Source of the DNA: Lepraria neglecta
Lineage: Eukaryota > Ascomycota > Lecanoromycetes > Lecanorales > Stereocaulaceae
Direction: 5' to 3'
DNA length: 64,000 nucleotides
Assembly: GCA_033220425.1 (NCBI GenBank)
Contig: CM065649.1
Location: 4,650,001-4,714,000, forward strand
Part shown: piece after piece, positions 13,818-16,043 of the stretch
Layout: the number at the start of each line of letters is the position of its first letter
Position numbering within the stretch: position 1 is the stretch's first letter
Notes under the pieces: generated by a model
What the model was told of the DNA's origin: nothing
The model's database searches: none
Seen by the model: only the letters and a program-made list of their open reading frames with translations
Position numbers and translations under genes: made by a program

Positions 13818-16043
13818 TTAACCCTGTACCTCCTTACCAATAGGCCCCACAGAACTATCCTTATGAGCGTCCGGCAACGGCGCATCCGGACTCGGCCTAA
13901 AGACTCTTCCCCATCTTCCATGCACAAGATCACTCATATTCTCCGCAACGCCTTTCATATTCTGCCTCACAAGCTCGCTCGTTGGCTGACTGAACAGGAT
14001 GTCAATCTCCTCGAGTGTCTTATTCTTAGTCTCCGGCATGAAGAGCAATTGGTAGAACCATCCTAGGACGGCAATACCGCCATAGAAGCCTAGTGTCAGG
14101 CCGATACGCGACATAGCTTTCTGCATGTCGCTGAAGAAATAGGTTACGAGCCAGGAACAGAAGAAGAGCGTCACGTCTGAGGTCTCCATGCCGTAGCTGC
14201 GAAGGTAGGTGGGGTAGACTTCTGCGGGTAATACCCATGTCAGACAGGCGTATGATCCGAAGAAACCCTCGTAAATGATGAGGCCTGTGATGTAACACCC
14301 TTCTGCAGCGCCAGTATGTTTCGAGCTATCGATCAGGTAGCTGCAGCCAATAATGAGTAGGCCGATGAAGAAGCCTGGAAGCATGGCGCAAGCCCAGAAT
14401 CGTCGACCGAAGCGCTCCATGTAGAAGATTGCCGGGATAGTACCTGCGGAGATTTCGGAGTCAGCATATCCCTTTTATGGATACAAGACAGTGTTGTGAG
14501 ACATGATTGGGGGGAACAGCCAGAGATACCGCTCCCGCAACATGCGCTAGGGCTCAAACAGCGTTCCTAATTGAGGAAAACCCCCTCCGAGAAGGACGTA
14601 CCGAGAAGGAGAGACCCGCCGCCAACGAGGGACATGAAGACGGATTGTTTCGAGTCGAAACCGACTTGGTTCATTAGGGTTGCCATGTAGTACATAATGG
14701 CATTTATCCCAGTGAATTGACCAAGGAAGATCATTATGTTGGCATAAATGATGGATCGACGGGCTCGAGGCACGGTGAAGAAGTCCAACCAAGCGAATGA
14801 TCCCGAGCGACTGTTCTTGTTTTCAGATTCTGCAGTTACGGCGTGTTTCATGATGAAGAACTCTTTCCTGTTTTCGGGCAACTCAGTCCCACGGATACGC
14901 TTCCAGACGTTAAACGCCTCGAGAGTGCGGCCTTTGTGCATCAGGAAGCGGGGAGATTCGGGCATAAAGAACATGCCGACGAGCATTACTGTGGAAAAAA
15001 CCAGGGAGGAACCCAACATGTAGCGCCAGCTGCCGCTCTAGAAAGCAATATCATGTTAGCAGCCCATTCTTTGCACTGATTTTGGGTAACTTACCTTGAC
15101 ATTAACAAAGATGGCAGCAACCACATAACCAAATACCTCTCCCAAGGCGATGTTGAATTGGTAGAGAGACACCAGATTACCACTGCAGGGATTTCGGATT
15201 CAGCATGCCTCTTTATGGATAGCAGAAATATTTGTAGGACATGTTTAGAAAGCAGAACCAGAGTCATTGTTCCTGAAACATGTCCTAGGACTCAGGCAGC
15301 TCTCTGAATTAGGAAAGAAATACTCGGAAATGCACGTACCGGTATTTCCTCGCCACGGATTCTGCAACATAGACTGGCACAGTCCCACCCTCCAAGCCAA
15401 CGCCCAAGCCCAATATAACACGGCCAGTGACGATCATGCCGAAGTTGATGGCGCCAGCCTCCAGCGCCGCGCCGATGGTATATAAAACGAGGGAGATGAT
15501 GATAGCCATCCTTCGGCCCACTGCCTCATTGGTCGGTCCAAGAAGGAGAGCACCTCCTATAGCCCCAAGCGGGACACCAGATGCCACAAGAGAGACTTGC
15601 GAAGTGTCGAGGTGTAGACTTGCTGGCATGTAGAGATTGGCACCGCTAATGAGAGATTGATCGATTCCAGAGAGCAAGCCTCCCATCGATGCGAAGCCAA
15701 CCAGTAACCAGGTAAAGTGGGCCGGGTTGTTGAAGTTGATGACTGGGCTGAAGAAGCTGTGCTTAACAGGATTCTCTCGCAATTCTATCTCAAGCAATTC
15801 AATCTCCTCGTCGATTTCCACTCCACCTTCTTGGGCGATCCTCATTGCGTCCCATTCGCTCATCCTACGGGCTCCACCAGTAGAGTATTGGCGACCGCCA
15901 TTGGTAGCGACGGACAAGTTGCGCTGGGTGATGGACTGGCCACGACTGGCTGTGGGCTCGACGTGCTCGATCTGGAGTTTGCCATCGACGTAGCGGCCCA
16001 TTGTGCTCTTCTCGCCCGTAGGCGAGTCGCTGTTCTCAGACAT
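13818..16043 (-). CDS. MFS sugar/polyol (inositol-type) transporter
   Basis: Four exons (16043-15340, 15182-15095, 15037-14602, 14443-13818) give 617 residues. The N-terminal ~110 residues are hydrophilic and acidic. Twelve membrane helices follow. Sugar-porter motifs are present: 'DQSLISGA' in TM1, 'NEAVGRRM' in loop 2-3, 'PESPRFLMHKGR' after TM6, 'GQFTGINAIMYYM' in TM7, 'ERFGRRFW' in loop 8-9 and 'PETKNKTLEEID' after TM12. The sequence pattern resembles myo-inositol/polyol or quinate-type porters, but the substrate is not decided. Introns 1 and 3 are unusually long (157 and 158 nt) and clearly related to each other; intron 2 is an ordinary 57 nt. The C-tail of about 75 residues is cytosolic. 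Confidence 0.9.
14444..14601 (-). repeat. Introner-like intron copy B (intron 3 of the sugar transporter)
   Basis: 158-nt intron, GTACGT...CCGCAG, phase 1. It aligns along most of its length with intron 1 of the same gene. Shared blocks include TGAG-CCTAG--CATGTT, CTCTGG, ATCCATAAA and the 3' end ATGCTGA-TCCGAAATC-C-GCAG. Most other introns in the window are 44-99 nt and show no such similarity. Confidence 0.8.
15183..15339 (-). repeat. Introner-like intron copy A (intron 1 of the sugar transporter)
   Basis: 157-nt intron, GTACGTGC...CTGCAG, phase 2. It is related to intron 3 of the same gene. It contains a perfect 12-bp inverted repeat, arms at plus-strand 15235-15246 and 15276-15287 (TAGGACATGTTT and its complement), so the RNA should form a hairpin. 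Predicted hairpins are a reported trait of fungal introner-like elements. Confidence 0.8.

Follow-up and report, generated by a model that had tools for sequence, protein, structure and literature searches.

Two introns of a Lepraria neglecta transporter gene are probably separate insertions from a dispersed introner-like family

Why do two of the three introns in one transporter gene resemble each other, and was one copied from the other? The gene lies on the minus strand at positions 13818..16043 of a 64-kb window (C4:4650001-4714000), the whole stretch of Lepraria neglecta DNA that was analysed. The genome searched comprised 42 Mb in 11 contigs. A PF00083 match and sugar transporter alignments identified the gene as a sugar/polyol transporter (MFS, Sugar_tr). 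Its four exons (15340-16043, 15095-15182, 14602-15037, and 13818-14443) encode 617 amino acids once spliced. How new spliceosomal introns originate is a long-standing question, and introner-bearing fungi offer one of the rare settings in which the process can be followed. The best explanation overall, to which we give a probability of about 85%, is that one introner-like family, here called family A, gave rise to introns 1 and 3 through separate insertions.

Intron 1 (15183..15339, 157 nt, phase 2) and intron 3 (14444..14601, 158 nt, phase 1), both on the minus strand as is the gene, run from GTACGT to CAG. Intron 2 (15038..15094, 57 nt, phase 0) has the form GTAAGT...GCTAAC...TAG. The lengths, coordinates, and GTACGT donors given in the initial annotation were correct on recheck. 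Its view of intron 2 as unrelated was also correct, as the profile search found no family A match there. It had further claimed that introns 1 and 3 align over most of their length, and BLASTN within the window aligned 136 nt at 70.6% identity (E 1.6e-11). With six end bases trimmed from each side, their local score was 65, and the maximum from 1000 dinucleotide shuffles was 28. The two introners have 157–158 nt versus 57 nt for intron 2, which is the single comparison intron. The spliced transporter formed a single 617-aa frame that was ungapped at both introner junctions against the solved glucose transporter GlcP, and its Sugar_tr (PF00083) match spanned both junctions.

At least 71 family A copies of about 157 nt were placed on contigs C1 to C8, that is, on all eight large contigs. 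This number is a lower bound because the genome search reports best candidates only. It comprises 65 elements from a profile search over 209 kb of DNA, five strong unread places matching the majority sequence, and C8:4236765-4236921, which carries both end patterns. At a threshold of 18 bits, the profile search returned 67 rows, which were merged to the 65 elements; the weakest elements scored 20–21 bits (E about 4e-5). Whole-genome BLASTN found at least 24 places for intron 3 and at least 11 for intron 1, queries counted. The family majority sequence gave at least 41 rows, 40 of them with E 2.4e-20 or better. The 3' end pattern GCTGACTCCGAAATNTNCGNAG was found with up to three mismatches at 93 places, versus 9 for the reversed-pattern control, and the 5' end pattern was found at 91 places, versus 50 for its reversed control. 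The copies are diverged, with a mean pairwise identity of 64% and a best of 91%. They also cluster: among 40 strong copies, three same-gene pairs lay within 3 kb, where 0.23 would be expected if half the genome were available (P 0.002).

The initial annotation had read introns 1 and 3 as introner-like elements, with further copies to be looked for in unrelated genes. Such copies exist (at least 71, with 17 genes recognized by Pfam), and the reading was borne out by dispersed related introns, unrelated host genes, and a hairpin-forming consensus. Introns 1 and 3 thus almost certainly belong to an introner-like element family. Introners are a known route of intron gain in some fungi, and family A adds to them.

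The reading frames around the copies were then compared. Of 65 copies read, 56 had the flanks and GT/AG ends needed for a frame test; seven were short-flanked and two (rows 12 and 55) had lost a splice site. The sense frame was the longer one in 50 of the 56 copies, and six did not favour it by length. At least 100 nt were open on both sides in 44 copies in the sense direction and in 13 in the antisense direction. Among 30 spliced frames, 22 had any Pfam match, and in 20 a Pfam domain crossed the junction, representing 17 genes. Three further scans gave no support. The host genes include those for a short-chain dehydrogenase, an aminotransferase, a sirtuin, a kinase, a helicase, an M49 peptidase, a P450, and a haspin. 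Pfam domains specific to fungi among the host genes show the DNA to be fungal, and the assembly yielded no match to 5.8S. Family A copies have GT-AG ends, a branch-site motif, and, by protein homology, seamlessly joined exons. Frame and homology together suggest that they are spliced out as introns by their own splice signals. Ends were weak in rows 7, 52, and 57. In two family A relics, C2:3382412-3382570 and C7:3151103-3151258, each with other copies nearby, a usable donor or acceptor was lacking around the expected position.

Insertion sites were analysed in 40 of the 56 flanked copies, leaving out those below 55 bits and rows 7, 23, 26, 39, 42, 45, 52, and 57, whose ends were unclear. No target-site duplication was detected: in registers of 2–9 nt, chance pairing was exceeded by at most 3.7 of 40 copies. 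Flush repeats of 2, 3, 4, and 5 nt occurred in 3, 0, 1, and 0 of the 40 copies, respectively. A weak G was observed on either side of the insertion (19/40 and 15/40), and the insertions were in phase 0 in 9 copies, phase 1 in 18, and phase 2 in 13. Repeat-induced mutation was rejected, as CpA changes were just mildly elevated, at 14.4% versus 8–11% in other C contexts.

The family A consensus, GTACGTACWTTTCGGAG ... GCTGACTCCGAAATGTGCGYAG, is about 157 nt long and forms an imperfect inverted repeat over its full length. Of the 67 profile rows, 20 showed self-matches in reverse complement (E 1e-3 or better), and in 16 of them the match extended across at least 140 positions. The perfect 12-bp inverted repeat that had been pointed out in intron 1 is real (15276..15287 and 15235..15246, by sequence comparison), but it is just one stretch of this whole-element repeat. 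Alignment also revealed a near-terminal pair of arms in both introns. In intron 1, the 5' arm is TTTCCGAG (15323..15330; the family A form is TTTCGGAG), and the 3' arm TCCGAAAT (15191..15198) lies between the acceptor and the element GCTGAA (15199..15204). The corresponding parts of intron 3 are TCTCGGAG (14585..14592), TCCGAAAT (14452..14459), and GCTGAC (14460..14465). By their resemblance to fungal branch sites, we take GCTGAA and GCTGAC to be the branch sites.

Conservation was measured over 25 copies that searches with introns 1 and 3 had recruited, a sample that favours regions where both are typical. In these copies, TCCGAAAT was the best conserved 8-nt stretch (95.5% versus 78.5% for the body); it was conserved as well as the splice signals, and none of 111 body windows reached its level. 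The partner arm TTTCGGAG was conserved at 88.5%, which 9 of the 111 body windows equalled or exceeded. At least six of the eight pairs between TTTCGGAG and TCCGAAA(T) were retained in 23 of the 25 copies.

The consensus folded at -57.9 kcal/mol (z -5.4). A near-consensus copy had a fold z of -3.4, and z was below -2 in 27 of 65 copies, the least diverged copies being stably structured. The further a copy was from the consensus, the worse its fold z (rho -0.39, p 0.001). The initial annotation had named RNA folding as a test of structure shared by introns 1 and 3; the consensus folds stably, but the two introns themselves folded like shuffles (z -0.3 and -0.7). These models suggest a hairpin that belongs to the element as a whole and has largely decayed in introns 1 and 3. 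Covariation of its base pairs was not above that of shuffles, and RNAalifold over the family alignment gave only four pairs. Selection on the hairpin in resident copies was therefore ruled against; the source element seems to have had the hairpin, which is then lost gradually once a copy has inserted. Pairing without covariation is expected if the pairing serves spread and not residence.

Was one of the two transporter introns copied from the other? The initial annotation took their presence in one gene as a sign of introns multiplying by copying. The family has indeed multiplied, but neither intron appears to derive from the other. Among the matches listed, the nearest relative of intron 3 was C7:645461 (82% by BLAST) and that of intron 1 was C2:3381742 (77%), the latter pairing being weak in the tree. 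Intron 3 grouped with four copies from C1, C3, C5, and C7 at 99/98 support, with intron 1 outside this five-copy group. Since these nearer relatives are in other genes and on other contigs, introns 1 and 3 look like two independent arrivals. A local duplication inside the gene, with the remaining copies incidental, would account for the shared host and the 70.6% identity. Forcing the two introns to be sisters cost 21 log-likelihood units with an AU p of 0.103, so separate origin is favoured, not proven. In 14 of 14 same-gene pairs, the partner was not the nearest relative, and we consider local duplication very unlikely. Identity averaged 58% in the 14 pairs and 64% over all pairs, which speaks against recent tandem copying; looser searching of the flanks tilts this sample towards weak copies. 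A stretch of about 230 bp in C7:643961-647099 recurs at 72% identity and in opposite orientation in C7:1330486-1333636, and is also tandem in the former; by eye it belongs to neither family A nor family B, described below.

Paralogues within the genome, at about 30% identity, were used to address intron gain. Four paralogue matches (C4:384614, C3:4888353, C5:2236460, and C3:3893529) were unbroken through both introner positions. A fifth, C8:683654, was also open, but it was 30 codons longer than the matched stretch. The unbroken paralogues fit a gain of introns in the transporter gene, but they could also reflect loss in the paralogues.

A second introner family, B, was found beside family A copies. 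Its introns are 185–349 nt long and contain modular repeats such as CTGCTCCCAAGACA..TTTTGGCA. Copies were located at C4:2670002-2670278, C2:4862475-4862772, C3:1119912-1120096, C2:3119030-3119378, C7:4064280-4064525, and three further loci. Among eight B copies, 23 of 28 pairs scored above all 60 shuffles. Homology between the A and B bodies was rejected, as 0 of 8 comparisons beat shuffles (p 0.08–0.47), and the folds of B copies were not more stable than those of shuffles (z -1.8 to +1.5). The ends gave a different picture. The two families have related near-terminal repeats in common, TTTCGGAGTC / GACTCCGAAA. Compared with TTTCGGAGTC, the opening 30 nt of six B introns agreed at 42 of 60 positions; across 2000 shuffle sets, the mean was 33 and the best set reached 40. 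At the 3' end, B copies have GACTCC-AAA or a near form, and several of them were found or defined by that end. The B-type 3' end pattern occurred at 45 places versus 2 for the control, and B modules were present in all three previously unread places with this pattern. DNA searches with two B copies found just one further copy, which leaves the 3' end as the only gauge of how large family B is.

One gene (C4:2668108-2671264, minus strand) contained four introners: an A copy of 157 nt, a B copy of 277 nt, another A copy of 157 nt, and a composite intron of 603 nt. With these removed, 654 codons were open (598 from the likely first ATG) and there was no other break. Its assignment as transglutaminase-like was unsupported, Pfam giving only weak coiled-coil matches. 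The composite intron (C4:2668584-2669186) consists of sense, antisense, and sense B segments. The antisense segment (C4:2668809-2669004) matched the B profile at E 1.8e-15, and a head-to-head, self-complementary (palindromic) junction was present. This intron may have arisen through nested insertion in antisense or through inverted duplication, and its antisense segment bears on strand dependence. A limited literature search found no paper on antisense-oriented fungal introners. Another gene region, C2:3118440-3119904, carried an A copy and the 349-nt B copy, together with a short B-like intron and a weakly A-like one of 118 nt (12 bits).

How do these families compare with known systems? In the part of Collemare 2015 (PMC4457414) available, the introner-like elements (ILEs) of Dothideomycetes are described as many related, seamless introns in unrelated genes that decay to ordinary introns, with several families per genome. 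Family A resembles them in being seamless, dispersed, and decaying, in a genome with more than one family. The same source describes a transporter gene of Passalora brachycarpa with two ILEs flanking an older intron. A difference from Dothideomycete ILEs, with their hundreds of near-identical copies, is that the placed copies of family A, at least 71, are diverged.

In Hypoxylaceae and Xylariaceae, symmetrical sister stwintrons and cropped introns have an inverted repeat over the element, according to the accessible portions of PMC8469720 and PMC12403724. These portions also report insertion into the coding strand, no target-site duplication, and a symmetry that decays with age. Near their termini, the Xylariales elements carry 10-nt repeats whose 3' arm separates the branch site from the acceptor; folding of the interior appears irrelevant (PMC12403724, in part). 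Family A has the same layout, including the position of the 3' arm. The repeat itself is different, TTTCGGAGTC/GACTCCGAAA in families A and B versus GUAUAAAAAC/GUUUUUAUAC in Xylariales. Another difference is that family A copies are apparently canonical single introns and not stwintrons, which in Xylariales have a [D1,2] nested twin-intron structure; in the frame tests and in the splicing of the transporter, frames were restored without any nested donor. Related repeats on two unrelated bodies are also unlike what the consulted sections describe for Xylariales stwintrons. The canonical introns of families A and B may be an independent instance of the Xylariales repeat layout.

The introners of algae and other eukaryotes that come from DNA transposons have inverted-repeat ends and form dispersed, intron-making copies (Gozashti 2022, PMC9860276, as far as its available text goes). 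Family A differs from them: it lacks target-site duplications, and nothing points to co-option of a splice site. The same text describes ascomycete introners as an outlier, without terminal inverted repeats (TIRs) and without target-site duplications (TSDs). Family A likewise has no TSD, but its ends form inverted repeats, a feature of MITE-type introners, and its consensus is an inverted repeat throughout.

How did family A spread? We lean towards an RNA-mediated route. The master element would be a spliceosomal intron of about 157 nt, bringing along every splice signal it needs and forming an imperfect inverted repeat over its whole length. After splicing from a transcript, the near-terminal stem (TTTCGGAG with TCCGAAA) would join both ends and shield the excised RNA. 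This RNA would re-enter the coding strand of transcribed genes through reverse splicing or RNA-templated repair and be copied into DNA. The resident copy would need only its splice signals and turn into an ordinary intron, so its hairpin would decay. Several features noted against this route are typical of DNA transposition, namely the inverted-repeat ends, the related near-terminal repeats on unrelated A and B bodies, and the antisense B segment inside the 603-nt intron. They would suit non-autonomous, MITE-like DNA transposons with splice signals in their inverted-repeat ends, both families being moved through their related ends by a transposase encoded elsewhere. Against such transposons, target-site duplication was not above chance in any register in the 40 copies, no copy was shown antisense in an exon, and frames and homology indicate sense insertion into coding sequence. 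There was also no longer coding relative among the family A matches listed, for which short flanks were read. We regard MITE-like movement as unlikely, though it deserves more weight than the two readings that follow.

Old introns kept by descent could look alike through constraint on splice signals, and splice-signal positions do rank among the best conserved. The likeness, however, covers all 157 nt, including parts without a role in splicing, and related copies occupy unrelated genes; descent is therefore hardly credible. Conserved non-coding RNA genes hosted in introns, such as snoRNAs, would explain the stable consensus fold. Searches of five loci gave no Rfam family at gathering score, and the base pairs lacked covariation beyond shuffles, which makes this reading about as improbable as descent. 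The RNA-mediated route remains the one we prefer for family A.

The related near-terminal repeats of A and B and the antisense segment both bear on mechanism. Tentatively, and at odds rather below even, the near-terminal inverted repeat alone might be the mobility signal, with common machinery reading the ends of A and B and ignoring their bodies. If so, the antisense B segment would mean that insertion is not bound to the coding strand, and antisense insertions in exons would simply be lost by selection. As A and B are alike at their ends only, the mobile part could be tested directly with the same ends and a swapped body.

Two smaller observations concern the family A searches. Four identical 22-nt matches to the 3' end pattern, ACTCAATCCGAAATCTCCGGAG, were found at C2:1527633, C2:3350814, C6:1319627, and C6:4737232; these are probably another repeat. 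A family A copy at C4:4649725-4649882 ends 118 bp short of the window; it lies in a haspin-like kinase gene, the downstream exon of which extends into the window.
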